Part shown: positions 2,987-57,567 of the stretch, piece by piece
How positions within the stretch are numbered: the stretch's first letter is position 1
Layout: each line of letters begins with the position of its first letter
Source of the DNA: Chryseobacterium defluvii
GTDB taxonomy: Bacteria; Bacteroidota; Bacteroidia; Flavobacteriales; Weeksellaceae
Assembly: GCF_014204415.1 (NCBI RefSeq)
Contig: NZ_JACHLE010000003.1
Span: 62,001 to 126,000 of the forward strand
DNA: 64,000 bases
Reading direction: 5' to 3'
Made by a program: the position numbers and the translations under genes
The notes under the pieces: model-generated
Databases searched by the model: none
The model's input: only the letters and a program-made list of their open reading frames with translations
What the model was told of the DNA's origin: nothing

Positions 2987-3862
2987 TTAATAATCAACAC
3001 TAAATAAATTCGTTTTCTCTCCATCAAACAGCTCCCAATCTTCAAACACTTCTTGTTTCAATTCATCCAACGTTTTAAAAAGAAAATGAGGTTTGGCATT
3101 TTCTGTAAAACGTTCATCTTCTAACAATCTCTTCATTGCCATTTTCCTATAATTCTCCAGTTCAAATACACACAACACACGGCTTCCGTAATCCAATCCA
3201 TATAATTTACTCGGCTGTCCCTCTGCCAATGCCTGTAAATGGTGGAAAAGAGACTTATGGACTCTTTGAGTATCATCTCACCTGTACATTTCGATGGCAA
3301 ACAGTTCTTTTCTGTTGGGAGTCTGGAGCATACAGACAGCATCAGCAATCAGGTACTCATTGCCATAGACCGGAATAGCAGATTCGGCTATGAAACCTTT
3401 TTTCCTTCCGGTAGATATTTTATCGAAATAGGTTTTAAAAAAGAGAATCTCCATATTTTGCTTAGTGGTTCGCTGTTCTACAGAAATTTGGATGTCAATC
3501 ATCGACAGCCTGTGAAAATAGTCCGAGAATGAGGTAGCATTTTTTTGAGGATATTTTACCGAGAGTTCCGTTCCGAAACGTTCTTTCAACAGTTTTGCTC
3601 CATGAATGGTAAGTGAATGGATGCTCGGAAGCCTTCAATATTGAGGATGGATTCAGAATTTCACAGAAGCAACCAAAGGGTTTCTCCAAAACCTGAGTTC
3701 AGAGATCTGTTTGTTCAGATTATCCGAATTTGCCATTACTCCTAAATTCAGAAGTTGTGGCGTAGTCAAAAACTTGAATTTTGCTAGAGCAATAAGCACT
3801 TTCTCCTGCGATGGCGAGAGGGTTTGGAAGAATAGTCTTTTTGTTTTCATAAAAATCGGCAT
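2987..3862 (-). CDS. Replication-relaxation family protein (TGA read as Gly)
   Basis: Reading TGA as glycine joins three fragments into one 291-residue protein ending on TAA. The N-terminal region (SPSQEKVLIALAKFKFLTT then PQLLNLG) is the winged-helix start typical of replication-relaxation proteins, which assist plasmid or mobilization functions. The middle carries the family pattern around IAESAIPVYGNEYLIADAVC. In-frame TGAs give VKF-Gly-IHPQY-Gly-RLPS and EMYR-Gly-DDTQ, all at turns or ends of strands where glycine is natural. It follows the coupling ATPase gene by 51 bp on the same strand, and both would serve DNA transfer. Under the standard code only a 69-residue N-terminal piece would be made. 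Confidence 0.75.
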
Positions 3863-3913
3863 AAAAAAATAAAAAGGCGATAAAAACGCCTTGTATTCTT
3901 ATAACAAGACCGA

Positions 3914-5413
3914 TTAGAGATGAAAATGAGGTTTTAATTTATCGATGGACTCTCTTGTGTTTTGCTGTGTAGCTGTGTTGTTATAGCCTTGTGAATCATT
4001 AGAAACTAAATCCTTAGTTAGAGGCTGTGCCTCTGACATTTCTTTTTCTGACTTATCTTGATGTGTATTGTTTTCAATCGTCCTGTATAAACCACTTTCT
4101 GAAATCATTTTATTTTTCAGCTCCTGCATTTGTTTGGTATTCATAAAATATCTTTTCGGATGTTTCAAAAGATAATCGGGACTTTTAATCTGAATGGCAG
4201 GATATGGATAATGATTATTTTTGACAAAGAAGTGGTAGGGAGGAAGGTATTGTAATTGATTATAAGATATTCCCAAATCTCAGGCTTGTGCCTTTAATGC
4301 AGGCAGACCGTTGCGTCAGACTATCTTAATTCCAATATTATTCAAAATTTCGTACTGAAGTTCTGTACGCAACTGAGTGATGCTTTGGGTTAGAGCGATG
4401 AGGTATAATTTATATTTTCTTGTTTCGGAAAGAATAATAGAATATGAATCTGCGGTAGCAAAAGATGCAAACTCGTCAACAAACAGATAACAGGGTTTGC
4501 GGTACTGCTCTTTCTGAAAGGCTCTTTGTAATGCAATACTGACAATGGTTGCAGAAATAAATATTCCGAGAGCTTTACTGGCATCGGTTCAGAGTTTTCC
4601 TTTTCAAAGATTGAAAAGCACAATTTTCCCATCATTTTTTCAGCCGTTCATTATTCTCCTGAGATCAACGGTTGCGGGTCAGTTCATCATCAGGTAAAAG
4701 CTGTAATTGTTTTGCAGGTTCTGAATTCTTGTATAGATCGCCAGTTTCGTTGCATTGTATTTTCCGTTGAGAAAAGCGGTTTGAAAGAATTGTCTGTACA
4801 CAGGATTATCGGACTTTCTTCCACGTTCCACCCATTCTTGGTTCTGATTATCATCCATAAATACCTGTAGGTCTGCTAATCCGCATTCTCCTTTTTGAAA
4901 CATAATGGCAAGACATGGTTTGAGCAGCGTTTCCATTCAAAGGCTCAGTCCTGCTTCGGAGATCATTTCTGACAATGCTTTGGCAAACTGTTGCGACATC
5001 AGATCAATCATGTTCGTATCAGTAACCTTTTGTCGGAACGGATTGATGCAGGGAATTTTTCATTGTTCTCGATGCGGGTCGATGTACAACACACGCTCTG
5101 GCTTCATTTGGTTAAGTCTAAATGAGAGGATTTGCAATGAAACGTCTCCATGCGGATCTAGCAAAATCATGGTATACTGCTCTTTGCGATGCGATTGGTA
5201 CTGGAGAGAATACCGCAGCACCTTCATGAGTTCACTCTTGCCCGAACCTGTTTTTCACGTCACAAAGGCATTTTTCTTTAGTGATTGTATGAGATAAGGA
5301 ACAGGAACAGGCTTGGGTCTAAAAAATAGAGTCTGACACGATTGTCGATAAAGTCCATAAGACGGTTGAAGAAGTTCATTATTGTAAAGTAAGAAATAAA
5401 TAAAGCGGACGTG
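3914..5413 (-). CDS. VirD4/TraG-type coupling ATPase (TGA read as Gly; 5' end disrupted)
   Basis: A type IV secretion coupling protein of about 500 residues that would pump DNA to the transfer channel. Near residue 53 is a Walker A motif, T-Gly-KTGSGKSEL, whose first Gly is a TGA (5257-5255). LLDPHGD and LYIDPHREQ follow, then KIVLFNL-Gly-K-G-KL-Gly-TD, and near residue 311 a Walker B motif YLFVDEFASFAT with ILSETRKY. Nine in-frame TGAs all fall at plausible glycines, and the stop is TAA at 3914. The frame is closed upstream by TAG at 5416 and no ATG follows it, so the 5' end is damaged; a poly-A run at 5321-5326 is a likely indel site. It is downstream-linked to the replication-relaxation gene. 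Confidence 0.8.
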
Positions 5414-5630
5414 CTACATATCTTTATTTCTGTGAATTGCAAGTCCTTTCGCTTTCTAGGTGTCCAAAATGTCAATAGGGTGACCCGTACCGTTATGGAT
5501 ACCTTTTTGAGACCTGTTATGGGAACCTCTAAAGCGGATGAGATAATGCCCAATCCTGCAAGGAAACTGCTCTTGTTTCTGATGCCATAATATCATCATT
5601 TATACCTTCTCTATCATTATTTTTTCTCAT
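5414..5630 (-). pseudogene. Broken 5' portion of the coupling ATPase gene
   Basis: A short ORF starts at 5630 (MRKNNDREGINDDIMASETR) and stops at TAG 5531. A second frame, open from about 5610 to 5278, carries on with EVPITGLKKVSITVRVTLL and then MNFFNRLMDFIDNRVRLYF, which would join naturally to RPKPVPVPYLIQ in the ATPase frame. Two frameshifts would restore one continuous protein. These may be real decay or homopolymer errors. Confidence 0.45.
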
Positions 5631-13797: not shown

Positions 13798-13965
13798 TAT
13801 AAGTCTTCACTGAATATATTCGTGTTGCTTTCAAAGGGAAGAAAACGATAGTGATTAATTGAATGTTGATAGCCTTTAAACCTGCAAGATATAAGGTATA
13901 TTATGTTTTTTTGATATACAAAAAGCAGGTACGTCATGCCTGCTTGTTTTACATTTTGAAATTTT

Positions 13966-14094
13966 CTATAAAAATAATACTTTAAATGCAAAAGCAATTG
14001 CACACATGCTTAATATTGATAAAATAATTCCTAAAAATGTAAAATGATTGGGGATTTTCCCCATTAAATCATTATTTTCTTTTTTCTTATCCAT
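13966..14094 (-). CDS. 42-aa single-pass membrane peptide at the end of the RiPP operon
   Basis: A 42-codon ORF starts two bases after the stop of the ABC exporter. It has a charged N-terminus (MDKKKENNDLMGKIPN) and one hydrophobic helix (FLGIILSILSMCAIAFAFKV). Its position as the last gene of the exporter operon suggests an immunity peptide or exporter accessory factor, by analogy with bacteriocin clusters; this is inference. It is short enough to be missed by gene callers. Confidence 0.5.
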   Translation of the reverse strand: MDKKKENNDLMGKIPNHFTFLGIILSILSMCAIAFAFKVLFL

Positions 14095-14096
14095 AA

Positions 14097-16274
14097 TTAA
14101 AGACCTAATTCTAATTGATTTTGTATTAATTCAAAATATTTTCCTTTACTTCTAATTAATTCATCGTGATTACCCCTTTCAATAATCTCTCCGTTATCTA
14201 AAACAATAATTTGGTCTGCATTTTTAACAGTAGATAATCTATGGGCAACCACAATCATTGTTTTATTTTTGAAATATTGGTCAATATTTTCAACTATTAT
14301 TCTTTCATTTTTTGCATCTAAAGAATTTGTTGCTTCATCAAAAAATAAATAGTCAGGATCTTTATAAATGGCTCTTGCAATCAGTATTCGTTGTCGTTGA
14401 CCATGACTTATACCTACTCCTTCTGAGCCTATTATAGTATTTAATTTGAGAGGCAGTTTATCAATAAAATCGTCAACATTGGCAAGCTTAACAGCATTTA
14501 ACAATTTTTCTTGATTAACATTTTCTTCTAATGCAATATTATAAGAAATGGTATCAGAAAATATAAAACTATCTTGTAAAATTACGCCACATTTATTTCG
14601 CCATAATGTATTTTCAAGCTCTTCTAAAGGGGTTTCATGTAAATAAAGATTACCTTTTTGAGGCTTGTAAAATTTAAGAAGTAGTTTTAAAAGGGTGGTT
14701 TTACCACTTCCGCTAACACCTACAATAGCAGTTGTTTTACCTTTAGGTATTTTTAGTGAGATATCTTTAAGTATATAATTTGTGTTATCATAGGAAAAGT
14801 TTATGTTTTGAATTTCAATATCCTGTATTTCGGAAAGTGAAGAAACTTTGCTTGGATTTTCTTCATCAGGTCTGTTATGGATTTCATTTAATCTTTCAAA
14901 ACTTACTTTTACTAACTGATATTGTAAAACAAAATTTATTAACTGACTGATCGGAGCATTAATCCCCCCTAAAATGAACATAACAGCCAACATACTACCA
15001 ATAGTAAGAGTTCCATTCATTACTGCCATTGATGAAACAAATACCACCAAGATAGTTTGAAAGAAACTAATAAATCTATAACTTTCATATTGTTGATTAA
15101 TTTTAAGTTTATCAATATTGTTTAAGTAAATAGTTGTTTGTATTTTTTGCCATTCATTACGTTTATTTTCTTCTAAATTATTTAATTTGATTTCTTGCAT
15201 TGAGTTTATTAACTCATAAATTTTGTTTTGATCCTTTGCTTGTAAAGAGAATGTTTTTTGATCTAAGATTTTTATCTTCTTCAAAAATCTGAAAATCCAT
15301 AACAATTCTATTATTGTACTAATAAAAACAATCAAAAAAATACTTACATTGAAGTAAAGTAATATAAATGAGTAAATTACAATACTAAAAATGGAAAATA
15401 CAGTCTGGATTAGATCTTTTGATAAAAATTCTTCAATTCTTTTGTGATCCTGTATTCTTTGAGTTAAATCACCAATATTTTTACTATTGAAGAACTTTAA
15501 AGGTAATTTCATCAGCTTAATAAGAAAATCTGAAATAATAGATAGACTTATTCGGCTACTAATATGTATAAATAGCCAAGAACGATAAAACTCTAATCCA
15601 ACTCTACTAATAAAAACAACAACCTGTGCTATTAAAATAAGGTATATAAAAGAAACATTTTTTAATGCAACTCCTTTATCTAATATTTTTTGTGTAAAAA
15701 AGGGAAATATTAGCTCAATGCTTGAAGATATTAGCAAGGTAAGAGCGATTAAGAAAAGTTGTGTCTTATGTTTTTTCAAATACTGAGTAACATATTCTAA
15801 ACTTCCTTTATTGCTTTTCTCTGTGGAGCTATTTTCAAACAGCATTTCCGTGGGCTCAAGCAGTAAAATAATTCCTTCTGTTTTTTCCTGTGTCCAACCT
15901 TTTAAAAATTCATTTTTGGAATATACCGTTTTTCCAAATGCTGGGTCTGCAACATATACTTTTTCTTGTGTGATTTTATAAACAACAACAAAATGATTTT
16001 GATTCCAAAAAAAAATGGCAGGAAGAGGAGCATTTTCTAAAACATCTTCAAAATTTAATTTTATCACTAATGGTTTATATCCCAACTTTTCTGAGGTATA
16101 ATTTAAATCAGAAATTGTAATACCCTGCTTTAAAAGATTACTTTCACTTAGAGCAGAGTTAGAATTTGAAATATCTATCCCATAATGCTTACTAATCATT
16201 TTAAGGCAAGCAAAACCACAATCTTGGCTGTCTAATTGCTTGAAAAAAGGAAAAGAATTTTTAAACAACCTCAT
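14097..16274 (-). CDS. Peptidase-containing ABC exporter (C39 family) of a RiPP locus
   Basis: A 725-residue PCAT-type transporter that would cleave the leader of a ribosomal peptide after a double glycine and export the core. Residues 8-130 are a C39 peptidase: Gln-Cys in FKQLDSQDCGFACLKMISK, His in NHFVVVYK and Asp in VADPAFGK. Six membrane helices span about 165-440. The nucleotide-binding domain has Walker A VGVSGSGKTTLLK, signature GISHGQRQR, Walker B YLFFDEATNSLD and a switch His in VVAHRLST. It overlaps the radical SAM gene by 14 bp, so the two are translated together. The intact peptidase motif matches the GG in the nearby 72-aa precursor. Confidence 0.92.
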   Translation of the reverse strand: MRLFKNSFPFFKQLDSQDCGFACLKMISKHYGIDISNSNSALSESNLLKQGITISDLNYTSEKLGYKPLVIKLNFEDVLENAPLPAIFFWNQNHFVVVYKITQEKVYVADPAFGKTVYSKNEFLKGWTQEKTEGIILLLEPTEMLFENSSTEKSNKGSLEYVTQYLKKHKTQLFLIALTLLISSSIELIFPFFTQKILDKGVALKNVSFIYLILIAQVVVFISRVGLEFYRSWLFIHISSRISLSIISDFLIKLMKLPLKFFNSKNIGDLTQRIQDHKRIEEFLSKDLIQTVFSIFSIVIYSFILLYFNVSIFLIVFISTIIELLWIFRFLKKIKILDQKTFSLQAKDQNKIYELINSMQEIKLNNLEENKRNEWQKIQTTIYLNNIDKLKINQQYESYRFISFFQTILVVFVSSMAVMNGTLTIGSMLAVMFILGGINAPISQLINFVLQYQLVKVSFERLNEIHNRPDEENPSKVSSLSEIQDIEIQNINFSYDNTNYILKDISLKIPKGKTTAIVGVSGSGKTTLLKLLLKFYKPQKGNLYLHETPLEELENTLWRNKCGVILQDSFIFSDTISYNIALEENVNQEKLLNAVKLANVDDFIDKLPLKLNTIIGSEGVGISHGQRQRILIARAIYKDPDYLFFDEATNSLDAKNERIIVENIDQYFKNKTMIVVAHRLSTVKNADQIIVLDNGEIIERGNHDELIRSKGKYFELIQNQLELGL

Positions 16275-17523
16275 ATTCTAAATTACGAAAACTTTCTAAT
16301 TTCTTTGCATATTCAGGTTCAGGAATTGTAGGTAAGGTTTCTTCTATTATTTGTAAAGCATTTTCATAAGTTAACTTCTGTATTTCTGATTCCTTTATAA
16401 GTTCTTCAGGCATCCCATCTATTACAGCATTTTGAATATGAGTTATTAGCTTCAATAAATCATTACAATATACAGGAGCATTATTAAAGCCATTCTTTGA
16501 ACTATAACGATGTGGCAAATATCCACCACCACAAATTTCATTTACGGGACAAGCTAAACATTTTTTAGGTAAATATTTACCACTATTATAATATATTTCA
16601 GCTAAAGGAGCATTTAAAGCATCTTGAAAGTTATGAGTGTTTATATTTACATTGTCTTTTGTAAAACCGTCTCCACAAATCTTTAAAACATCAACAGCTT
16701 CTAAACCTCCATCAGTTTCTAACACTAAAACACTATTTTCTCCAGAGCCAATATTGTCTATACTATACAATCCACCTAAAATTCTGTGTATAATTACATC
16801 AAATAATCGAATCTGTATTCTTTCCTCTTCGCTTGATGAAAACCATTTATCAAAAATTTTGATATACCAATTTGCTGATGGTGTTTTTTCTACATCATAT
16901 TTTTCATTCTCTAATGTATCATGATTCAAATCCAATAAAAGAAAATCAGCAGAAAGAGCATTAATGCTTTTCATGTGTTGAAATGCAGCCATTGGATCTA
17001 AATCTAAATTTATTACTGACAGAAAGCCTAAATGCCCTTTTTGATACTTTCTGCTTATTTCAATACCTTTAATAACTTTATCATAAGTTCCTTTGCCTTG
17101 CTTATCGACTCTATATTTATCATTGATTTCTTTAGTTCCATCAATACTTACACCTACTCCAATATTATATTTATCAAAAATAGAACACCATTCTTCATCA
17201 ATTAATATTGCATTGGTTTGCAAAGAATAACTTATTGTAATACCATCATTCTTCAACATCTCCATTTTTTCAACCATCTCAACAAATTTATCTTTAGGCA
17301 TTAATAATGGTTCTCCTCCATGAAAAATAAAAGTAAATTTTGTTACATTATTTGCTTTACAATGTTCTCCAATTTTTTTAACTGCTTCGTCTATTGTTGT
17401 TTGACTAATAAACTTTGGTTGATTTTTATATGAATCATCTCCAAGATTATACATATAGCAATATGTACAATTTATATTACATCTACTCGCTATTTTAATT
17501 ATTAATGTATCACAATAAGCCAT
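16261..17523 (-). CDS. Radical SAM/SPASM peptide maturase, cyclophane-type candidate
   Basis: A 420-residue iron-sulfur enzyme. Near residue 14 is the radical SAM motif CNINCTYCYMYN, followed by FIFHGGEPLL (SAM binding). The SPASM part has KKCLACPVNEICGGGYLPHRYS and a late PVYCNDLLKLITHI. That C-terminal wording (CGGGYLPHRYS...VYC-DL) is what I know from the FxsB/XyeB/GrrM branch, whose members make carbon-carbon crosslinks on aromatic residues of ribosomal peptides. The likely substrate is the precursor encoded 64 bp upstream, with two W-T-Q/K motifs. It overlaps the exporter gene. The crosslink chemistry is inferred, not shown. Confidence 0.9.
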   Translation of the reverse strand: MAYCDTLIIKIASRCNINCTYCYMYNLGDDSYKNQPKFISQTTIDEAVKKIGEHCKANNVTKFTFIFHGGEPLLMPKDKFVEMVEKMEMLKNDGITISYSLQTNAILIDEEWCSIFDKYNIGVGVSIDGTKEINDKYRVDKQGKGTYDKVIKGIEISRKYQKGHLGFLSVINLDLDPMAAFQHMKSINALSADFLLLDLNHDTLENEKYDVEKTPSANWYIKIFDKWFSSSEEERIQIRLFDVIIHRILGGLYSIDNIGSGENSVLVLETDGGLEAVDVLKICGDGFTKDNVNINTHNFQDALNAPLAEIYYNSGKYLPKKCLACPVNEICGGGYLPHRYSSKNGFNNAPVYCNDLLKLITHIQNAVIDGMPEELIKESEIQKLTYENALQIIEETLPTIPEPEYAKKLESFRNLEYEVV

Positions 17524-17587
17524 AATTTATATTTTTTTTAATTTGATTCTTAAAAAAGCTGTCCAAAAGACAGCTAATTTTCTAAGA

Positions 17588-17806
17588 CTATTCGCCAGCT
17601 TCTAAAAGATATACTTTCTCTTTGCTGTGTTTAGTCCAAGAAGAGTGTTGAGTCCAACCTCCCATTTCTCCTTCAATAACCTGCATTGCAGCTTTCTTTA
17701 GGATAGGGTTGTCAAAAGACTTGATTGACTTTTCTAATGCCTTAGCATTATTCAACTTAAATCTATTCATCTCGAAATAAATTTGAGGGTTAAACAATAG
17801 AACCAT
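17588..17806 (-). CDS. RiPP precursor peptide with GG leader
   Basis: A 72-residue peptide. The first ~50 residues look like a leader (LNNAKALEKSIKSFDNPILK, then AAMQVIEGEMGG), ending in a double glycine suited to the C39 peptidase of the exporter. The predicted core of about 22 residues contains WTQHSSWTKHSKEK and YLLEAGE. Two Trp-Thr-polar triplets are good candidates for Trp-to-X3 cyclophane crosslinks; W-S-K is the crosslinked triplet in darobactin. It lies directly upstream of the maturase on the same strand. ATG codons at 17806 and 17770 are both possible starts. No related peptide is otherwise visible in the window. Confidence 0.75.
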   Translation of the reverse strand: MVLLFNPQIYFEMNRFKLNNAKALEKSIKSFDNPILKKAAMQVIEGEMGGWTQHSSWTKHSKEKVYLLEAGE

Positions 17807-17864
17807 AGTTTTTGTGGAATGAGATTAATTCTTTCGACTTTTTCGCTCACTTTATATAAAAAAA

Positions 17865-20033
17865 TTATTTTACCCTATTTTTTTCATCTTCATTACTTTG
17901 ATCTCTTTTTTCACTCTTGAGTTGTTTTCCAAAGTTCCATGTTAATGACAATCTTATTTTTTGCGTATCATCGTATTCATTGTTTCTTTGTACTATTCCA
18001 TTTACTACTTGTGTAAATATTGGTCTATTAGTTCTAAATATATCCATTGCATTTAAACCTATATGAAGTTTTTTATTTAATACAGAATATCTTACTCCTG
18101 CATCAAAATAATAGAATTTTGACAAACTATAACTTCCAGCTACAGACGGAGATTGGTATGTGAAACCAAACTCAGCTCTAAATGTTTTACTTTTATTAAG
18201 TATAAAACTATTATTAGAGTTGAATGACACAGTCCAATTATCTATTCTAGGTAAAGTATTTATTAAATCTGATGTAGTTTTAGCATAGTAAATACTCAAT
18301 GAGTTATTGCTTTCGAACCATGCGAATTTATTAAAAGTATAATTTTGCATAATCCCTACATTTAATTGCTTATAAAAATTGTACGGTATTACAAACTGAC
18401 CAGGGTTTTCATTTGATACAAAGGTGACCTGATCAAATCCATTTGTCATATTAGTAACATAAAGCGATGTATAAAAATTTTTATATGAAAGAGAAAGATC
18501 TATATTGTCAATAAAAAAAGGTTGTAAAAAAGGATTGCCTTCAGAATAATTATAAGCAGATGAATAAAATCTAAAAGGGTTTAGATCTGAGTATGAAGGT
18601 CTATCAATTCTTTTACTATAATTAAGTCCCCAAGTACTATTTTCAGTTGCTTTATAAGTTAAATAAAAAGTTGGGAAAAGTTTATTATAATTATTTTTGT
18701 TTGTTTGGTTAAGAGTTTCTGAAAAACCTTTTGTTTGTGTACTTTCTAATCTAAGACCCAACTGTAGATCCCATTTTTCAGAAAGTTTTTTATTTCCTGA
18801 AAGATATATTGCTTGTATATTCTCTTTATAATTGAAAATATTACTTTTTGATGAATCAAAAATAGGACTCATACTACTCGTATCAAAATAAGAAACCTTA
18901 CTGTCATTATTGATAAAAGATACCTTTCCACCGAAAGAAAGATTTACCCATTTCAAAGGCATCTCATAATCAAACTTTGCAGAGTATATATCTATATTTT
19001 GATTACTTATAGTATTTGCAGAAATATAACGGTTAGGTATTGGGACATTATTAGACAAGAAAGTATTAGTGTTAAAAATATTATCCAAAAAAGATGTGAA
19101 TTTAAAATAATCTACATCTACTGAATATTGCGTACCAAGAGTATCTACTTTTGTTATGCTATGAAAATTCAAAGAATGTGTTTTTCTATCTATTTCTGTT
19201 CTAGAGGGAGTAATAATTAAAGAATCCAAAGTAGAACTATTACTGGTAATATATGAGGTGTTTTTACCTTTCACAAGTGGTTTACTTAGAACTCCTGAAT
19301 ACTGAACACCCATAGTTGTTTTAGGACTTACTTGATAGTCTAATGCAACTCTTCCACTTAAACTATTTAAAAAGCGCCTTTTATCATTGGTTTCAAACCA
19401 TGTGTAACTTGGATAATATATTGTATATTCTTGGTATGGAGCAATACTACCATTATTGTAATTAATATTTGAGGTAATTGTCAACTTATCTTTTTGATAA
19501 TTGAGTCCACCACCAAATACTCCTAAAGGATGAGTTGCTTGTGTATATGAAGTTTTCAAATTACCACTTATACTATTTTTCTTTGCTTTTTTTAATTTGA
19601 TATTTACAATTCCACTATTCCCTTGAGCGTCGTATTTTGCTGGTGGATTAGTAATAACTTCTATACTTTTTATATCCTCTGACCTAATGGTTTTTAAAAA
19701 GTTTGTTAATTCATCTCCTGAAAGCTGCATCAATCTATCATCTATCATTACTGACATATTATTTTTACCAACCATGGAAATTTGGTCATTCTGAACTCTT
19801 ATACTTGGAGTAACTTTTAGAGCATCCAAAGCATCTCCACCAATTGCAGATATAGAGTTTTCAACATTAAAAATTAACCTATCAACTTTTCTTTCAATAA
19901 GTTTCTTTTTAGCTATTATTTCCACTTCTTGTATTTGCTTTTCTATTATTTTGTTAATAGAATCATTATTCTTTTCTTGAGAATAAAAAAGAACTGGAAA
20001 GAATAGAAAAACTAGTATTATTTGCTTTATCAT
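17865..20033 (-). CDS. TonB-dependent-receptor-like outer-membrane beta-barrel protein
   Basis: About 722 residues from the ATG at 20033, chosen because a clean signal peptide follows (MIKQIILVFLFFPVLFYSQ). The plug domain is at about 45-150 (DALDALKVTPSIRVQND, VMIDDRLMQLSG, SIEVITNPPAKYDAQG). The rest is the beta barrel of the OMP_b-brl type, with YSKRIDRPSYSDLNPFRFY. The usual N-terminal carboxypeptidase-like domain is absent. It lies 59 bp upstream of the RiPP precursor, so it may carry the product across the outer membrane, act as its receptor, or protect against it. Upstream is a Crp-type palindrome. Confidence 0.88.
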   Translation of the reverse strand: MIKQIILVFLFFPVLFYSQEKNNDSINKIIEKQIQEVEIIAKKKLIERKVDRLIFNVENSISAIGGDALDALKVTPSIRVQNDQISMVGKNNMSVMIDDRLMQLSGDELTNFLKTIRSEDIKSIEVITNPPAKYDAQGNSGIVNIKLKKAKKNSISGNLKTSYTQATHPLGVFGGGLNYQKDKLTITSNINYNNGSIAPYQEYTIYYPSYTWFETNDKRRFLNSLSGRVALDYQVSPKTTMGVQYSGVLSKPLVKGKNTSYITSNSSTLDSLIITPSRTEIDRKTHSLNFHSITKVDTLGTQYSVDVDYFKFTSFLDNIFNTNTFLSNNVPIPNRYISANTISNQNIDIYSAKFDYEMPLKWVNLSFGGKVSFINNDSKVSYFDTSSMSPIFDSSKSNIFNYKENIQAIYLSGNKKLSEKWDLQLGLRLESTQTKGFSETLNQTNKNNYNKLFPTFYLTYKATENSTWGLNYSKRIDRPSYSDLNPFRFYSSAYNYSEGNPFLQPFFIDNIDLSLSYKNFYTSLYVTNMTNGFDQVTFVSNENPGQFVIPYNFYKQLNVGIMQNYTFNKFAWFESNNSLSIYYAKTTSDLINTLPRIDNWTVSFNSNNSFILNKSKTFRAEFGFTYQSPSVAGSYSLSKFYYFDAGVRYSVLNKKLHIGLNAMDIFRTNRPIFTQVVNGIVQRNNEYDDTQKIRLSLTWNFGKQLKSEKRDQSNEDEKNRVK

Positions 20034-20073
20034 ATTTTCATTAGAGTAGACAAATGTGAAAATAAATAACAAA

Positions 20074-20102
20074 AAAAAGTGTGATTCATATCACACTTTT
20101 TA
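20074..20102. promoter_or_regulatory. Crp-type palindrome / bidirectional terminator before the receptor gene
   Basis: AAAGTGTGAT and ATCACACTTT are perfect arms around TCAT, and the core TGTGA-N6-TCACA matches the classical Crp consensus. It lies 41 bp upstream of the receptor start and directly after the Crp-family gene. It can also fold as a hairpin followed by a T run and so end transcription of that gene. The sequence cannot show which role applies, or both. Confidence 0.55.
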
Positions 20103-20140
20103 ACAGTTGTCTTATTTATATCAATTATAAATAAATTAGA

Positions 20141-20716
20141 TTACAGTATTACTTTTTTATTCCTTACATAGGTTTCACGGCTAATTCCTAAAAGAGAAGC
20201 CAATAATGTGTCACTTAATTTATGTATCAAGTGAGGAAATTCTTGTTTAAGATGGACTAATTTCTTATCAAGATCAAATGTATTTAACGCTTCAAAGCGT
20301 TTTATATGTAAAGCATTATACATTTCCAATATATCTGCATATATGTTTTTCAGATTAGAAGAAGATTTCATCAATATATCAAAATGATCTCTCGTGATAC
20401 AAAGTATCTCACCATTCTCTAAACATTCAAATGTTTCATTATTTTCTGTAAAACCTTTAAAACTTCCAATATTAGTTAGAAATCTGTTTTCCCAAGCAAT
20501 CATTCTCGTGATTTCTTTTCCGTTATCGTTAGAATAAAACGCTCTTAAAAAACCACTGTTAATAAAAAATAGTTTGTTGCAAGGAGAATTTTTTTCAATT
20601 AAAATTTGTTTTTTCTTTACTTGTAATGGTGTGAAATAATTTTTAATGTTCTTCTTTTCCGACTCTGATACAGTTCCATACTTTTGAAGAAAATTAATTA
20701 GTTGTTCGTGTTTCAT
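20141..20716 (-). CDS. Crp/Fnr-family regulator of the RiPP locus
   Basis: A 191-residue cyclic-nucleotide-binding-like regulator. Residues 20-115 form the beta-roll (KQILIEKNSPCNKLFFINSG), and the C-terminus has a short helix-turn-helix (LLASLLGISRETYVRNKKV). It is first in the minus-strand series receptor-precursor-maturase-exporter. A Crp-consensus palindrome lies between it and the receptor, so it probably controls the locus. The ligand is unknown; this short Bacteroidota branch usually lacks the cAMP-binding residues. Confidence 0.85.
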   Translation of the reverse strand: MKHEQLINFLQKYGTVSESEKKNIKNYFTPLQVKKKQILIEKNSPCNKLFFINSGFLRAFYSNDNGKEITRMIAWENRFLTNIGSFKGFTENNETFECLENGEILCITRDHFDILMKSSSNLKNIYADILEMYNALHIKRFEALNTFDLDKKLVHLKQEFPHLIHKLSDTLLASLLGISRETYVRNKKVIL

Positions 20717-20788
20717 TTGTGTCTTTTAGTCGATAGTTTTATTTTGATATTAACGAATAATGTTGGGTTTTATTTTGCGAAAAAAATA

Positions 20789-20921
20789 AAGGGTGTGAAT
20801 TAACAACACCCTTCGTTCAGGTTCTGACAAAACCCTCTCAAGAAATGAAGTAAAACACACCCAATCGGGTGCATTTCACAGTCGAATTTCTTGAGATATT
20901 TAAAATTGTCAGATTTTGAAC
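20789..20921 (+). ncRNA. Candidate structured RNA with nested stems
   Basis: An 8-bp hairpin AAGGGTGT/ACACCCTT (20789-20813) is followed by a three-tier nested structure. Its tiers are TCTGACAA/TTGTCAGA (20823-20830 with 20906-20913), an exact 11-bp TCTCAAGAAAT/ATTTCTTGAGA (20836-20846 with 20886-20896) and CACCC/GGGTG at the tip. No ORF covers it. The long rod with internal bulges is reminiscent of 6S-like RNAs, including the 6S-Flavo type, but I cannot confirm a family. Strand is not certain because the stems are symmetric. Confidence 0.45.
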
Positions 20922-21079
20922 AAAGAAAATGAGCTGTTAAACGCAGTATGTTATTTAAAATATATTCTTTTTTATCTACACATAAAATTTCTGTTATTTG
21001 ATTTGATTACAAATGTAGTTAGAAAAAATTGTTTTTCAAATTTTTTGAATATTGAATGAAATTTTTCACTATTAATTAA

Positions 21080-21730: not shown

Positions 21731-22741
21731 TTATGGGTGCTCGTTTCGGGCTCTTATAACCAGATTAACCAGGTCTGAGCCTCCGCTTGCAAAATTATCG
21801 CTCGGGTTATGAGCACTTTGTGTCGCCACAGCATAAGGAGACCCATCCCAATACCCCCAGAACGGACCGCCGCTTTGTCCCGGCCAGATATCTGCTTTAT
21901 GGCTCATGCTTTCATTGTCATCCGCACTCCAGAAATCACCGTCTAAAGCAATACCTGTCTGATAGGTTGGTCTTTGGGTTCCTGTAAGATCTCCGGGATA
22001 CCCTGCATGGGTCCAATAAGCTCCTCCATCCCAGGAATCGGAATATGATTTTGAACCCAGCCATCCTGTACTGGTTCCTATAGGCCTGTCCAGAACTATT
22101 ACGACATAGTCATACTGTATTTCCGTGGAATCTATTGTAGGGCCTGCTACTTTATATTTATAGTAAGTGAGTACGCCCCAGGCACTGCCATAAGGAGCAC
22201 TTCCGTTATAATACATCGGTGTAAATTTTAGCCAGCCTGTACTGTTATTGGGCTGCCAGTCTACGATATGTGCACAGGTAAGCAAATGTCTCGGGCCGAT
22301 CATTACTCCGCTTCCTGATCCTAAAGAGCTTTCTACCCTGCCTACGCAACGCCATGGATAGGCTGTAGAGTAATATACTTTTCTCTGATCTGCTCCAAAT
22401 ATGGTTTTAGCTCCTTCCTCCGCTGCGAAAGAGTCTCTTTCGATAAATTTCGGCTTACGGTTTTTCCTGGGCTCCAGCTTAGGCTGATATTCAAAGTCTG
22501 AATGGGTAGGATAAAAATGATCAGTTTCTTTAGGCTGACCTTCAAATGCTTTTTCATTTACCGGCATTCCGATGGTTTTCATTCCTTTAGGGAACGTACG
22601 CCCGTCAACAGTCTCCATTGCGGGTTTCTGGCTGATCAGTTTTTCGACAGCCGCTGATTTTTCAGCTGATTTTGCTTTGACAGCTTTAAGTCTTGACATT
22701 TCTTCCAGTGTCATTGGTTTTTTATTTTCAGAATTAGACAT
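21731..22741 (-). CDS. Trypsin/V8-like serine protease
   Basis: A 336-residue chymotrypsin-fold peptidase. The catalytic triad is visible: His in RHLLTCAHIVDW, Asp in IQYDYVVIVLDRPIG and Ser in WPGQSGGPFWG. Residues 1-115 are a charged, probably disordered pro-region (MTLEEMSRLKAVKAKSAEKS) with no signal peptide, so it seems to be made inactive in the cytoplasm and to need cleavage. It follows the metacaspase gene by 67 bp on the same strand. The pairing suggests that one protease activates the other. GC is higher than in the RiPP locus next door. Confidence 0.9.
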   Translation of the reverse strand: MSNSENKKPMTLEEMSRLKAVKAKSAEKSAAVEKLISQKPAMETVDGRTFPKGMKTIGMPVNEKAFEGQPKETDHFYPTHSDFEYQPKLEPRKNRKPKFIERDSFAAEEGAKTIFGADQRKVYYSTAYPWRCVGRVESSLGSGSGVMIGPRHLLTCAHIVDWQPNNSTGWLKFTPMYYNGSAPYGSAWGVLTYYKYKVAGPTIDSTEIQYDYVVIVLDRPIGTSTGWLGSKSYSDSWDGGAYWTHAGYPGDLTGTQRPTYQTGIALDGDFWSADDNESMSHKADIWPGQSGGPFWGYWDGSPYAVATQSAHNPSDNFASGGSDLVNLVIRARNEHP

Positions 22742-22808
22742 GATTATTTAGTTTTTAATGAATTGGTTCCTACTCTTTTTATGGCTTTTCGGATGCCGCC
22801 GTTGATTT

Positions 22809-23660
22809 TTAAGAAAATATTTTCTGAGAAAATTCTGCCGTGATGCTTTCCGTCTGGTTGATCTGGGCTGCTCCCATGGCAGCTAATGCTATGGCTATCT
22901 GCTTGTCGAGGGTTCTTCTGACAATATTCCCGTTGGTAGCCCGCAGTATTTTACAGAAATGATAGGTGAAATATCCTCTTATCTGTCCGCTCAGATTTCC
23001 TTCCATAGATACCTGGTTGTCTTTAGAGGCAGCCCATAAGGTGTGATTCAAGCCGGCAACAGGCACTAAAGCTTTAGTCACGGTGTTCGCTTTTTTAGAA
23101 CTTTTGGATGATGGCATTTCGCTTGCATAGGTCATATAAAATTCATCTTCCAGCATTGGGGGAATGTAACGTGCTGTTTCGTAAGTAAGTTCCAAGTCCA
23201 AATCCAGTCCCAGGTCCATTTTTCTTGTTCCGGTTCCTGCATGGCAGCAGTCGAAGATCACTTCCAGGTTTACTCCGGGTTTCAACTTACTGAGTACTGC
23301 TTTAAAATTATCATCCCGGATTACTCCGGCACTTGCATAATCATGCGGACAAATGGCTTCATCCAGACCATCTACTTCCAGATCTGCCCCGATATTGGCG
23401 ACTCTTGTTCCGTGACCGGAATAGTAGAAAACTAATGAATCTCCTTTAACACTGCTGTTTACTAATGTCTTCAGATAGTTCAGTATATTGGCTCTTGTTG
23501 CATTCTGATTGGTAAGGATCTTAATCTTTGAGGGATTAAAACCACAGATCACCAATGTATTTGCCATGTCACGCGCGTCATTGATACAGCCATTCAGATC
23601 CGGTCCGCCAGATCCTATGGGTGCATAATCATTGATTCCTACAATTAATGCTTTTTTCAT
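22809..23660 (-). CDS. Metacaspase (caspase-like cysteine peptidase)
   Basis: A 283-residue C14-family peptidase. The N-terminus KKALIVGINDYAPIG and the dyad His in SLVFYYSGHGTRV and Cys in EVIFDCCHAGTG are all in place, with SSGHG-type spacing and the specificity-pocket acid in GLDEAICPHDY. There is no signal peptide or death-fold domain. It forms a two-gene unit with the trypsin-like protease. Bacterial metacaspases paired with trypsin-like proteases are discussed as conflict or programmed-death modules. The trigger is not encoded visibly next to it, unless the kinase/regulator operon upstream is involved. Confidence 0.9.
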   Translation of the reverse strand: MKKALIVGINDYAPIGSGGPDLNGCINDARDMANTLVICGFNPSKIKILTNQNATRANILNYLKTLVNSSVKGDSLVFYYSGHGTRVANIGADLEVDGLDEAICPHDYASAGVIRDDNFKAVLSKLKPGVNLEVIFDCCHAGTGTRKMDLGLDLDLELTYETARYIPPMLEDEFYMTYASEMPSSKSSKKANTVTKALVPVAGLNHTLWAASKDNQVSMEGNLSGQIRGYFTYHFCKILRATNGNIVRRTLDKQIAIALAAMGAAQINQTESITAEFSQKIFS

Positions 23661-53293: not shown

Positions 53294-53695
53294 ATGAACA
53301 CAATTGTCGGTAGAAATACCAGAAACGCAGAAATCAACACATTGAAAAACGACAGACAGGTCGTGAACTTTTCAGTAGCCATCAATGACAGCTACAAAAC
53401 CAAGCAGGGAGAGCGCAGAGAACTAACCACGTATTATAACTGCTCATATTGGATAAACCCAAATGTTGCCAAAATCCTTACCAAAGGAACTTTAGTAGAA
53501 TTATCAGGTAGAGTGAGTTCAAATGCATGGATAGGGAAGGATGGGGAAATCCATTCAGGACTGAACTTCCATACATCAAGCATTAAGCTACATGGTGGTA
53601 GTGGAAAAAATTCTGAAAGCGAACCGAAGCAAAATGTAACACAAGAAACAGGTAATCCTTTTGCAGGGGATACGGATGATGATTTACCATTTTAA
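53294..53695 (+). CDS. ssb: Single-stranded DNA-binding protein
   Basis: A 133-residue SSB with an OB fold (MNTIVGRNTRNAEINTLKND, VVNFSVAINDSYKTKQGE, WINPNVAKILTKGTLVELSG) and the acidic tip DDDLPF that recruits replication partners. It is shorter than chromosomal SSB and typical of plasmid or conjugative-element copies. It leads the PRTRC region. Confidence 0.93.
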   Translation: MNTIVGRNTRNAEINTLKNDRQVVNFSVAINDSYKTKQGERRELTTYYNCSYWINPNVAKILTKGTLVELSGRVSSNAWIGKDGEIHSGLNFHTSSIKLHGGSGKNSESEPKQNVTQETGNPFAGDTDDDLPF

Positions 53696-53726
53696 TAATT
53701 AACCCAAGATTACCTTAAAAAAACTT

Positions 53727-53936
53727 ATGGAATCACAATATAATTTTCAGATGAAATCCCGAAATGACCGAACAGAATGGGAGCAGGTAGCAATATACCT
53801 CAAAATCCAGTGTGACAGGGCAACTGCGATACACTATGCAAGAAGTTTGTCACTAAAATTTAACAAGGAAATCCGATTGACACAGGGTGCAGACCCCATG
53901 AAAACAAGTGGAACTTATATTTATGAAAATCCCTGA
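53727..53936 (+). CDS. Small hypothetical protein of the PRTRC region
   Basis: A 69-residue protein (NDRTEWEQVAIYLKIQCDRA, then EIRLTQGADPMKTSGTYIYE) with no family I recognise. Stop TGA, immediately before the next ATG. Confidence 0.6.
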   Translation: MESQYNFQMKSRNDRTEWEQVAIYLKIQCDRATAIHYARSLSLKFNKEIRLTQGADPMKTSGTYIYENP

Positions 53937-53938
53937 AA

Positions 53939-54145
53939 ATGAAAACAAAATCAAGAACCGAAGCCAAAAAACTGGCAAAAGCGTATAGCTATAATAAAGA
54001 GTACGCAGATGTGCCTGTATATATAATTTACTGTAACCGATCAGAAAAGTATTATGTAGATACAAACAGCCTGATACGTCTTTGGGAAACACTTATCGGC
54101 TACTACATTAATGGGGTTTTTACCTCTGTAAAGAATAATTCATAA
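53939..54145 (+). CDS. Small hypothetical protein of the PRTRC region
   Basis: A 68-residue basic protein (MKTKSRTEAKKLAKAYSYNK) with aromatic-rich middle (VYIIYCNRSEKYYVDTNSLI). It starts two bases after the previous stop and looks translationally coupled. The function is unknown. Confidence 0.6.
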   Translation: MKTKSRTEAKKLAKAYSYNKEYADVPVYIIYCNRSEKYYVDTNSLIRLWETLIGYYINGVFTSVKNNS

Positions 54146-54162
54146 CATAAAAAAACAAAAAA

Positions 54163-54621
54163 ATGAAACGATCTGAAATACCAACACCCTATTTAATGAT
54201 AAAAGCCAATACCAACAGCGAATGGGATTACTGTGACTTCGCCATCATTTCTCTTTCAGAGGACTGGAAAAAAGAACAGCAGAAACGGATTGAAAATATT
54301 AAACCTTTTTCTGATGATTATATGCTTCTTTCGATGATATACAGTGATGCATCCATTACATTTTATAAGGATGATAATGAGATATGCCTCGATTCCACAG
54401 ATTTATTAGAGGATAGAATATGGTCTTTTGTGAAACTGGACGAAGAAACACGGGAAAAGCTATCCGTACCTGAAAACAGATTGACTTCCCATACACTCCA
54501 TGTATTTAAAAGTGGCTATGCTCTGTACCAGACTTACGGTAAGCATACAGGCGAAGATTTCTGGACAGAAGATTTTCCCTTAGAAGAACTTATAAAAAAT
54601 GACACCAACCTTACAAATTAA
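54163..54621 (+). CDS. Hypothetical protein of the PRTRC region
   Basis: A 152-residue soluble acidic protein (PTPYLMIKANTNSEWDYCDF, FAIISLSEDWKKEQQKRI, then YGKHTGEDFWTEDFPLEELI). No domain is recognised. It is followed 6 bp later by the PRTRC E gene. Confidence 0.65.
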   Translation: MKRSEIPTPYLMIKANTNSEWDYCDFAIISLSEDWKKEQQKRIENIKPFSDDYMLLSMIYSDASITFYKDDNEICLDSTDLLEDRIWSFVKLDEETREKLSVPENRLTSHTLHVFKSGYALYQTYGKHTGEDFWTEDFPLEELIKNDTNLTN

Positions 54622-54627
54622 CAAATT

Positions 54628-55182
54628 ATGCAAACCAATTTTTTCAATCTGATAGCCAAAATGGATATTAACAGTAAGCTGATTCTAACCATTGCCAAAG
54701 CCAACGAAAGTCAAATAGTGGCTTCCATATTAGTACAAAATGATGGGTGTGGAGATAAAGCAAAAAATATCATTCCTCCTCTTAACCTTAAAGGAACGGC
54801 AGACGAGCTTGATGCCGGATTTTTTGAACACATTAAAGCCCCATTAAAAACCGCTTCGGGACTGATGGTCGATATGGAAAGCTTTATGAAGCAATTAGAA
54901 GAAGCCAAAAAGCAATCCGCAATGGAAAAAGAAAAATCCGATAAGGAGAAAAAAGAAAAGGAAGCCAAAGAAAAAAAATGCAAAGATGCTTTTCAAAAAG
55001 CCGAAGAACTCGAAAAGGAAGGCAACTACAAAGGGGCATGGTCAGCACTTCCAAAGGCTTCTGAATATCCCGACTATGCAGAAACTATCCGCAAAAAGCA
55101 GGATGAATATGAAAGACACTTTGCACATAACCTTTTCAGTGAGGAAAAAACGCCTACCACAACCATTAATCCACAGCCATGA
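54628..55182 (+). CDS. PRTRC system protein E
   Basis: A 184-residue protein matching PRTRC E: the N-terminal domain FNLIAKMDINSKLILTIAKA, PPLNLKGTADELDAGFFEHI, then a long charged coiled coil (EKEKSDKEKKEKEAKEKK) and a short helical end. PRTRC (ParB-related, ThiF-related cassette) genes are carried by plasmids and integrative elements; the function of E is unknown. Its TGA stop overlaps the next small gene (ATGA). Confidence 0.85.
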   Translation: MQTNFFNLIAKMDINSKLILTIAKANESQIVASILVQNDGCGDKAKNIIPPLNLKGTADELDAGFFEHIKAPLKTASGLMVDMESFMKQLEEAKKQSAMEKEKSDKEKKEKEAKEKKCKDAFQKAEELEKEGNYKGAWSALPKASEYPDYAETIRKKQDEYERHFAHNLFSEEKTPTTTINPQP

Positions 55183-55337
55183 TTATAGAAACCTATATAG
55201 CAACCTTACAACATGGTAAGGGTAAAATAAGATTCCAAATAAATTCTATGAGTGGAAAACAGATAATGGCAATAGAAAATTGCCCAATGAGAGCCATTAT
55301 CGGACTAAAGATGAAGGGCAGGAAAATAGTAAAATAA
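55179..55337 (+). CDS. 52-aa basic peptide between PRTRC E and C
   Basis: A short ORF coupled to the E gene by a 4-bp ATGA overlap: MIIETYIATLQHGKGKIRFQ, then INSMSGKQIMAIENCPMRAI and a basic end GLKMKGRKIVK. The position and overlap support translation. The function is unknown. Confidence 0.55.
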   Translation: MIIETYIATLQHGKGKIRFQINSMSGKQIMAIENCPMRAIIGLKMKGRKIVK

Positions 55338-55365
55338 AATACGTCAAATCAGAAAATCAACAATT

Positions 55366-55584
55366 ATGTTACTTGCAACCCAATTAGAAAGAGTTTTTAT
55401 CCTGAGAGATAACGGACAGGAAATTCGATTGACAGACCCCGAACCCAAATGGAGTGTTGAAGCCGTGATGAATTTTTACGCCAATACCTATCCGATTTTA
55501 ACCACTGCAAAAGTATCTGCACCACAAATCAGGAATGACACGGTAGAATACCGTTTTGAAAGTGTAATGGGAACGAAAGGCTGA
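55366..55584 (+). CDS. PRTRC system protein C
   Basis: A 72-residue protein typical of PRTRC C: LERVFILRDNGQEIRLTDPE and PKWSVEAVMNFYANTYPILT, ending in a beta strand VEYRFESVMGTKG. The function is unknown. It ends on TGA and lies within the cassette. Confidence 0.88.
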   Translation: MLLATQLERVFILRDNGQEIRLTDPEPKWSVEAVMNFYANTYPILTTAKVSAPQIRNDTVEYRFESVMGTKG

Positions 55585-55666
55585 TACACTATTATGGTTG
55601 GGTTTTCAGTGATCTGCTTTAAATCCCACCAATATTTACGAAATATCAATCATTAAATTATGATGA

Positions 55667-55843
55667 ATGCAACGAAAAATCATATCGGGAAAAATACAGC
55701 TTCCCGAAGAGAAAAAACAAAAGCAACTGCACAAACAGTTGGGAGAGTTTGCCCATTGGATGCAAAGACCAAAGGATGCCAGCGAAATACAGAAAGACAA
55801 AATGAAAGCAGTACCAATAGCCATGCTACCTATGCTTTTCTAA
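55667..55843 (+). CDS. 58-aa protein overlapping the region before PRTRC F
   Basis: A short ORF with good composition: MQRKIISGKIQLPEEKKQKQ, LHKQLGEFAHWMQRPKDASE and MKAVPIAMLPMLF. It overlaps, in another frame, the 5' extension of the F frame, which there encodes poor sequence. This ORF therefore looks like the true gene and marks F as starting later, or a frameshift joins the two. Confidence 0.5.
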   Translation: MQRKIISGKIQLPEEKKQKQLHKQLGEFAHWMQRPKDASEIQKDKMKAVPIAMLPMLF

Positions 55844-55908
55844 AATGCTCGTTTCTGCCTAAGCTGATAGACACGCCATCCATACAGGATGAGAAGAAAA
55901 CAGGCAAA

Positions 55909-56829
55909 ATGGAAAGGGATTTTTACCAGTCCCTTTCCCAATTGACCGAACATTACGGAATCACACCTGCACTGTCAAAACATTTAGGTTTTCCTTACAA
56001 TATTGCTTTTGCCATAGAGGATATCAAAAAGCAGTTAAAAATTAAAACAAAGAATTGGGAGAAAATTCGCTTGATACAGGATAAGAAGAAAACGTATTTG
56101 TTGAGTGAAGAAAGATATAATACAGGAGCTACTTTATATTATATTCCGATAATTCCACTGTACCGATTATCTAAAAATCCCAATTATAGACAGGCTGTAC
56201 AGCTTTTGCAATCCGTTTGTTCCTATCTGTATCACATCGCAGATGTCCCATACTACAGAAAACAGGAAAGTTACCTGTGCTGGATGTATGAAATGATTTC
56301 GGACTGGCTCATTAATGATGAAACCGAAGATACCCCTGAATATGTACGTGAAATAAAACAAAGCGAATGGATTGGTGACTATATGGAACAAAAAATATAC
56401 AATCCACAGAATTTAACCTTATTTAAAGAACGGATTAACCGTTTTGAAAATAGAGATTCATTTGAAACCGATTGTCTCCTTTTAGCCTGTGATACCCTTG
56501 CCCTCTATGAAATGTTTCCCAATGCCACTATTTATAGAAATATTCAACAAGACAAAAGAAATTCAGATAACGACGATTATGACGAGGACTATCATGAAAG
56601 AACCATCACAATGGAAAAGTATGTTTCATTCTGCGCAGATGATAAAGGAATATTGTTTCAGACTTTATTTGATTCCGTTAATGCAGAATTTCAGGAATGT
56701 ACGGAAATAGAAGAACCATCCACACAAAAAAGATTTGACGGAACAAATGTCAGCAATGATAACCTTGATTTTGAAAACTGCATTTTTCCCCTGATAGAAA
56801 GATTAATTGATATTCTGAACAGCATTTAA
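55909..56829 (+). CDS. PRTRC system protein F
   Basis: About 306 residues from the ATG at 55909. The frame is open back to 55660, and the segment FLPKLIDTPSIQDEKKTGKM just upstream also looks coding, so the start is unsettled. The body is helical (YYIPIIPLYRLSKNPNYRQA, YRKQESYLCWMYEMISDWLI, CLLLACDTLALYEMFPN) and fits the large PRTRC F protein by size and by position between C and B. The function is unknown. Confidence 0.7.
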   Translation: MERDFYQSLSQLTEHYGITPALSKHLGFPYNIAFAIEDIKKQLKIKTKNWEKIRLIQDKKKTYLLSEERYNTGATLYYIPIIPLYRLSKNPNYRQAVQLLQSVCSYLYHIADVPYYRKQESYLCWMYEMISDWLINDETEDTPEYVREIKQSEWIGDYMEQKIYNPQNLTLFKERINRFENRDSFETDCLLLACDTLALYEMFPNATIYRNIQQDKRNSDNDDYDEDYHERTITMEKYVSFCADDKGILFQTLFDSVNAEFQECTEIEEPSTQKRFDGTNVSNDNLDFENCIFPLIERLIDILNSI

Positions 56830-56856
56830 ACTATAATACCATTTAAATATAACATC

Positions 56857-57567
56857 ATGAAAGATATAACCGATCACTTCGGAACACTGTATCATCCGGT
56901 TTCAGCTCTGGTCATTTATCAGACCAAAGACGATGATAAAGATACTTATGTAGAACATTTTGATATGGATAAAGACGGAAATCCCATTAATGCCCATCCT
57001 TTAAGCGAAAGAGAAGCTAAAATATTTGCAAAGTCGCTTACTACGGAAAAAGAAAAAAGCAAAGCATTTTTAAAACCTGAAAGTATTCTGCCCACCCATG
57101 TTTTATATATCAATCCTACCGAAAAGGGTTCAGTGATATGGTATACTAAAGCCAAAAAAGTAAAACTATTCTTTACCGAATCCCTTGAAATTCCTAATGG
57201 TATAGCACATACTCCACCTATGCTGTGGATGGCTTCAAAACAGCATCTTACCGTATTTGCTCTCACTTCAGACAAAAGACCCACAGAAAAAACAGTTTTA
57301 TACCATGCTCCTTTTTTCAATGTCTATGAAAATGGAAGTGTCTGTATGGGAACAGTTAATATTGATATTAAAAATTCAGCATCGGTTGAAGAATTTATTT
57401 GCGCTTGGGAAAGCTATTTTTTTAACAGTAGGTTCAGCCATTTAAACCATAATCCTACCAATAGCAATTGTGTAAACCTTTGGAAAGAACTTATGGATAC
57501 AGACAAAATCTTTCCAAAAGAAATATTAAAAAAGACCAATAAAACCCTTAAAAATTTACTGCCATGA
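56857..57567 (+). CDS. PRTRC system protein B
   Basis: A 236-residue protein: FGTLYHPVSALVIYQTKDDD at the start, LPTHVLYINPTEKGSVIWYT, PPMLWMASKQHLTVFALTSD and HAPFFNVYENGSVCMGTVNI. This is the pattern of PRTRC B, which is often found fused or adjacent to the ThiF-type protein and may be related to E2/UBA partners. It overlaps the ThiF gene by 4 bp (ATGA). Confidence 0.87.
   Translation: MKDITDHFGTLYHPVSALVIYQTKDDDKDTYVEHFDMDKDGNPINAHPLSEREAKIFAKSLTTEKEKSKAFLKPESILPTHVLYINPTEKGSVIWYTKAKKVKLFFTESLEIPNGIAHTPPMLWMASKQHLTVFALTSDKRPTEKTVLYHAPFFNVYENGSVCMGTVNIDIKNSASVEEFICAWESYFFNSRFSHLNHNPTNSNCVNLWKELMDTDKIFPKEILKKTNKTLKNLLP

Follow-up and report, generated by a model that had tools for sequence, protein, structure and literature searches.

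A probable triceptide-type RiPP locus with a C39 exporter and a TonB-dependent receptor, carried as mobile-element cargo in Chryseobacterium defluvii

Enzymes that form three-residue cyclophanes link a Trp, Phe, Tyr or His to the C-beta of the residue at i+2 (PMC11002830). The triceptide enzymes include YhhB, which links Tyr and His with Arg (PMC11002830), YxdB, HaaB, XncB/XyeB, OscB/GrrM and MscB (PMC11002830 and papers cited there). ChlB (PDB 9gm3, 9gmc), whose structure was solved together with its precursor, is a multiple-cyclophane synthase (cited in PMC12636437): a radical SAM domain fused to an HExxH hydroxylase, acting several times on one peptide. The Itf locus of Bacteroides thetaiotaomicron joins a precursor, a radical SAM enzyme, a C39 ABC exporter and a TonB-dependent transporter (PMC11002830); it also has a YcaO amidine synthase, and its Trp cross-link is of another kind. 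The darobactin enzyme DarE is likewise a radical SAM/SPASM protein and makes a W-S-K link; grasp-with-spasm clusters (TIGR04192, TIGR04193) use ATP-grasp chemistry and a full HlyD adaptor.

The locus analysed here lies in a window of 64,000 nucleotides, the whole stretch of Chryseobacterium defluvii DNA under study. It shares with the triceptide enzymes a SPASM-type maturase and aromatic-X-acceptor triads (Trp, Phe, Tyr, His), and differs from the known triceptide systems in a maturase scoring below family cut-offs, its Bacteroidota clade, four contiguous mixed Trp/His triads, and the presence of a C39 exporter, a TonB-dependent receptor and a mini-anchor. ChlB is the closest solved structure to its maturase (33% identity, TM 0.91 on the target) and repeated action on one peptide would be a further likeness, but no such hydroxylase is found in the locus. 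Unlike the Itf locus, it contains no YcaO gene; with grasp-with-spasm it shares the kind of exporter and, in a congener, the cargo slot. The initial annotation knew of no described product from this combination of genes, a statement that holds except that the Itf locus already pairs precursor, radical SAM enzyme, C39 ABC exporter and TonB-dependent transporter. The open-access literature yielded no paper about this Chryseobacterium branch, and an earlier listing in a network figure of a subscription journal is possible. Triceptide chemistry is a known class; the branch, the four putative back-to-back staples and the stripped-down exporter partner are not described within the accessible literature, and new here are the 42-aa anchor-like gene, a hairpin between precursor and maturase genes in every locus tested, and a cargo slot that is occupied by a grasp-with-spasm cluster in a congener. 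As read from the sequences, the locus is characterised by its gene content and order, its enzyme at family level, an i+2 signature, hypervariable cores beside a conserved exporter, and the cargo slot (Table 1). We consider it probable that this RiPP locus is of the triceptide type and travels as the cargo of a mobile element, with a product bearing up to four contiguous cyclophanes, C39 export and a cognate receptor.

Table 1 Features of the putative triceptide locus and its surroundings (positions in the window).
Feature	Position	Strand	Basis or remark
Left boundary of the cargo slot, conserved in congeners that carry other cargoes	13810..13970	.	Congener comparison
42-aa single-TM protein, candidate HlyD-type adaptor remnant (anchor only)	13966..14094	-	Position, hhalign, co-occurrence
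C39-peptidase ABC exporter (PCAT), 725 aa	14097..16274	-	Pfam domains, identity to relatives
Radical SAM/SPASM peptide maturase, 420 aa	16261..17523	-	NCBIfam, PDB sequence match, AlphaFold, tree
T-run hairpin separating the precursor and maturase genes, likely an attenuator or a terminator	17557..17575	-	Terminator scan, folding
Precursor gene, 60 aa	17588-17770	-	Start at the second Met, by homology
Core peptide WTQHSSWTKHSKEKVYLLEAGE	17588..17656	-	Comparison with relatives' precursors, triad analysis
Leader peptide ending EGEMGG (predicted C39 cleavage site)	17657..17770	-	Start and GG site from relatives' precursors
TonB-dependent outer-membrane barrel with plug, 722 aa	17865..20033	-	PF14905 (3.5e-96), predicted fold
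Exact Crp-type palindrome TGTGATTCATATCACA, putative regulator box	20080..20095	.	Palindrome between the Crp-type gene and the receptor gene
Crp/Fnr-type regulator, 191 aa	20141..20716	-	PF00027

Open reading frames and homology define six minus-strand genes in the interval 13966-20716, beginning with the Crp-type regulator and followed by the TonB-dependent barrel, precursor, radical SAM/SPASM maturase, C39 exporter and 42-aa membrane gene. The five genes named by the initial annotation were all found, and the sixth was absent from its description. The G+C content of the operon is about 26-30%, compared to 33-43% on either flank, and the exporter and maturase genes overlap by 14 bases. A co-occurrence search across Bacteroidota, suggested earlier as a check, found the order receptor-precursor-maturase-exporter again in many other genomes of the phylum, and this recurrence places the locus beyond chance. 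Relatives were collected from a genome scan (33 loci) and from 323 genomes of the family (48 with a match at 1e-40); when the phylum was sampled evenly the maturase family was sparse (9 of 297 genomes at 1e-30), and no second maturase of the same kind was found in the own genome. In the nearest loci, identity to the window fell from the exporter (66-86%) through the receptor (50-73%) to the maturase (45-66%), and the cores were unalignable. As in RiPP loci with a GG leader and PCAT export, a short GG-leader precursor adjoins the modifying enzyme and the C39 ABC exporter. Several other Bacteroidota loci (L105, L034, L037, L038, L044, L046, L047, L048) carry two or three such maturases close by, hinting at a division of labour between triads. 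In L109 (G066), a maturase of the AAYDR-type branch is broken into two frames (3750-4990) and is probably decayed.

The maturase has the conserved Cys of the radical SAM motif (C15-C19-C22) and of the C-terminal auxiliary-cluster region (C283, C322, C325, C331, C353). Its three best NCBIfam models, all of cyclophane-forming enzymes, were YhhB (NF041707; 354.5 bits, cut-off 445), FxsB (TIGR04269; 312.8 bits, cut-off 370) and XyeB (TIGR04496; 223.3 bits, cut-off 450); GrrM/OscB (TIGR04261) gave 116.2 bits of the 310 needed, and the enzyme stayed under every curated family cut-off. The FxsB/XyeB/GrrM crosslinking branch to which it had been assigned is supported for FxsB and XyeB, both among the top models, and unsupported as regards a close link to GrrM. 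ChlB (9gm3) was the nearest solved structure by sequence (E 5e-68) and the best PDB match of the AlphaFold model (pLDDT 85), followed by anSMEcpe. In a maximum-likelihood tree of 39 enzymes, the window enzyme fell into an eight-member clade whose enzymes come from Chryseobacterium- and Flavobacterium-type genomes (support 100/98), inside a wider group (97/93) that holds ChlB, a HaaA-associated FxsB enzyme and other relatives, and leaves out the sulfatase maturases, DarE, GrrM and PeaB; GrrM, ChlB and FxsB sit on long branches and their placement is unsure. Given the sub-cut-off scores and the long ChlB and FxsB branches, the closest characterised relative is unsure as well. The phylogeny, another check proposed at the outset, puts the maturase among the cyclophane synthases and apart from sulfatase maturases and DarE; together the comparisons support a RiPP locus with a predicted aromatic cross-linking maturase.

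The leader was correctly described as ending in MGG, and comparison with relatives extended the ending to EGEMGG. The W-T-Q and W-T-K triplets reported in the core are both present, but as two of four contiguous triads, WTQ-HSS-WTK-HSK, with Trp/His at an exact period of three. Four aromatics spaced in this way were obtained in 0.8% of shuffles of the window core and in 0.3% for the core of the closest relative (66% maturase identity), which keeps the period-3 tetrad with other aromatics (FNR-HSS-WNQ-FDK). A small ORF with a GG (or AG/GA) leader adjoins the maturase gene in most relative loci, and the relatives' cores share almost no sequence; in loci with several candidate precursor ORFs, the GG-leader ORF was picked by eye. 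Among 96 aromatics in 27 cores, the i+2 residue was polar (N/Q/D/E/R/K/S) for 87, compared to 44% in shuffles, for sequences that are related to each other and a polar set picked from known acceptors; none of 5000 shuffles reached the observed count, and there was no enrichment at i+3 or i+4. With the stricter acceptors N/Q/R/K and a reduced set, the values were 50/73 at i+2, 11 at i+1 and 8 at i+3, and 10/36 in leaders. Taken alone, the window core reaches four i+2 acceptors in 9% of shuffles, which is not rare by chance, so the i+2 case rests on the family. At this family level the polar i+2 enrichment reads as a triceptide signature, and the core carries the aromatic-X-acceptor triads of that class. 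Two extra small ORFs lie between maturase and exporter in L101 (G111; 5023-5609); one of them ends in YGQLVYTQVVFDRIGFSKV and resembles a second core with i+2 acceptors, without a GG leader.

The exporter contains C39 (PF03412, 1e-30), ABC_tran (1.5e-29) and ABC_membrane (3.5e-26) domains, and its C39 peptidase, previously called intact, indeed has complete motifs: QDCGFAC (Cys19), NHFVVV (His) and ADPAFG (Asp). Leader ending, C39 motifs and exporter domains fit a predicted cleavage after GG. Homologues of the 42-aa gene start 0-3 bp past the exporter gene (seven loci of the subtype, full reading); at the same position, other Bacteroidota loci of the family have a protein of 140-176 aa or, in the case of L053, the beginning of a HlyD-like protein. 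Read as adaptors, these proteins would form a size series across related loci (full HlyD, 140-176 aa, about 40 aa). A profile of seven small proteins matched the N-terminal anchors of the adaptors with an hhalign probability of 80 (E 1.4e-5). A second set gave a probability of 76, compared to 6 or less for 25 control membrane stretches of the exporter; the score of the 42-aa profile was 25.7, compared to 16.2 or less for these controls, and the probability drops to 34 with just four adaptors as the target. At E < 1e-12 the 42-aa gene was present in only 10 of the 323 family genomes, all carrying the locus. Pfam detected no domain in the 42-aa gene and no confident one in the mini-adaptors. The periplasmic hairpin and the barrel-sandwich domains that define HlyD-type adaptors were not found in the 42-aa protein, of which the anchor region alone matches; it is a candidate membrane-anchor remnant of such an adaptor.

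The receptor starts at the ATG at 20033, not at an upstream TTG, with the signal peptide MIKQIILVFLFFPVLFYSQ. Its predicted fold, a plug in a large beta-barrel with TonB-dependent transporters as the best PDB matches, is that of a TonB-dependent receptor; this fold comparison was used in place of a sequence profile, which found nothing at 0.001 among PDB chains. It is 43% identical to its best paralogue in the own genome, and lacks the N-terminal CarboxypepD_reg domain, as does the G199 receptor; the domain is present in L059 and most relatives. The dedicated receptor claimed for the locus recurs: a receptor adjoins it in 9 of 10 genomes of the subtype (the copy in G250 being cut at a contig end), with none beside it in G104. 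The receptor is a usual, not a universal, member of the locus.

A darobactin/dynobactin-like product, with Trp-Trp or ether-bonded fused macrocycles and W-T-K as the counterpart of darobactin's W-S-K, was suggested by that resemblance, by the two Trp of the core and by a DynA model score of 161 bits. This is very unlikely: the DynA cut-off is 450, the DarE model (NF038005) gave 103.6 bits of 650, DarE lies outside the group in the tree, and W-T-K is one of four generic aromatic-X-polar triads. Relatives carry Phe, Tyr or His at the same spacing in the Trp positions, a change that a Trp-Trp macrocycle would not tolerate, and the kinship with darobactin drawn by the initial annotation was rejected on the scores of both models, far under their cut-offs. 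The two His of the core, the H-rich cores of some relatives (L042) and a receptor model whose fold comes closest to haem and siderophore transporters would agree with a metallophore-like peptide, whose His residues would capture metal for re-uptake with the help of the TonB-dependent receptor. That region of the PDB would, however, be matched by any model of a TonB-dependent receptor, and the close relatives L006 and L059, with the same exporter and, in L059, the same receptor type, have no His or other obvious metal ligands in their triads; we regard a metallophore as quite improbable. It is extremely improbable that we are dealing with an ordinary maturase of the sulfatase type, for which the small ORF would be no substrate: the sulfatase maturase model scores 189 bits, below the three cyclophane models, and the relatives' maturase genes are preceded by small GG-leader ORFs with the i+2 pattern.

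Small hydrophobic genes next to peptide exporters are often immunity genes. The 42-aa gene could accordingly encode a small immunity peptide and no adaptor remnant, the more so as no separate immunity gene was seen at the locus; against this, it is conserved across loci whose cores have nothing in common, occupies the place of the HlyD-like adaptor and matches the adaptor's anchor, leaving immunity a possible, rather unlikely explanation. If the adaptor has shrunk to a membrane anchor, the cross-linked peptide might be freed into the periplasm and exit or act through the co-encoded TonB-dependent barrel, with the peptide-barrel pair swapped as a cassette and no HlyD/TolC tunnel; this extension is considered unlikely.

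In the triceptide mechanism that we prefer, the maturase would read the leader and then join an aromatic residue (Trp/His) to the beta-carbon of the i+2 residue, so that WTQ-HSS-WTK-HSK would carry as many as four contiguous three-residue cyclophanes; we infer which triads would be cross-linked and the type of bond, for which C-C is favoured over C-O. The C39 exporter would cut after GG and take the product through the inner membrane, where the 42-aa membrane peptide would stand in for a full adaptor. The hairpin after the precursor gene may keep precursor above maturase, and the adjoining Crp-type regulator would probably control the operon. The peptide would then act extracellularly, most likely where related bacteria compete or signal to each other, with the co-encoded TonB-dependent barrel as its cognate receptor (self-protection or re-uptake). 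The roles that we infer for product and receptor are the weakest step and are put forward tentatively, with doubt slightly prevailing.

At least ten related loci within one bacterial family combine one exporter type with widely differing cores, whose triads use Trp, Tyr, Phe and His. They form a natural set for learning how cyclophane synthases choose the aromatic and the bond position, and for asking whether a cognate TonB-dependent barrel serves as receptor, immunity factor or exit. Should the anchor-only adaptor be confirmed, it would bear on the way in which C39-processed peptides pass the two membranes of Bacteroidota.

Homologues of the Crp-type regulator (60-65% identity) occur almost all in genomes without the RiPP locus, beside other genes, and in G250, where the locus is present, the homologue is on another contig. 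The regulator was consequently dropped as a conserved part of the system, which the initial annotation had considered it to complete, and is seen as a local partner; in the window it probably controls the operon. The 3.87-Mb genome has four TGTGA-N6-TCACA sites; the palindrome is one of these and lies inside a terminator-like hairpin (20074-20101, terminator scan). It occurs in the loci of 5 of 9 regulator homologues (L140, L142, L143, L144, L146), with 0.05 expected over all nine, mostly just past the end of the regulator gene, and some copies double as terminators; this recurrence and position suggest that it is probably the regulator's own box. Between precursor and maturase, a strong hairpin was present in 7 of 7 loci folded (-17 to -25 kcal/mol), in unrelated sequences. 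Rfam gave no credible RNA.

More than 60 congeners share the conserved chromosome to the right of about 21713, and the DNA on the left is accessory. The left slot edge, segment 13347-13970, is found again in congeners ahead of different cargo: a complete grasp-with-spasm cluster in G065 (TIGR04192 366 bits, TIGR04193 416 bits, both over cut-off) with a C39 exporter and a full HlyD adaptor, and other genes in other congeners; in G089, the left segment and 20769-21040 bracket a different cargo. Low G+C and a slot holding other cargoes argue that the gene set is horizontally acquired cargo of a mobile element. Another chromosomal site, shared by C. luteum, C. lathyri, strain ZHDP1 and G111, carries the locus in these four, with differing cores. 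Within congener loci, the cargo slot covers 2441-9325 of L132 and 7904-13912 of L137. Directly right of the island, a trypsin-like peptidase and a caspase-like gene (21731-23660, motifs by eye) form a pair that over 60 congeners retain, with a DNA identity of 76-82%. Further along the window, a single-stranded DNA-binding protein and a PRTRC-system ThiF protein (231 bits, over cut-off) mark a second mobile region at 53294-58370.
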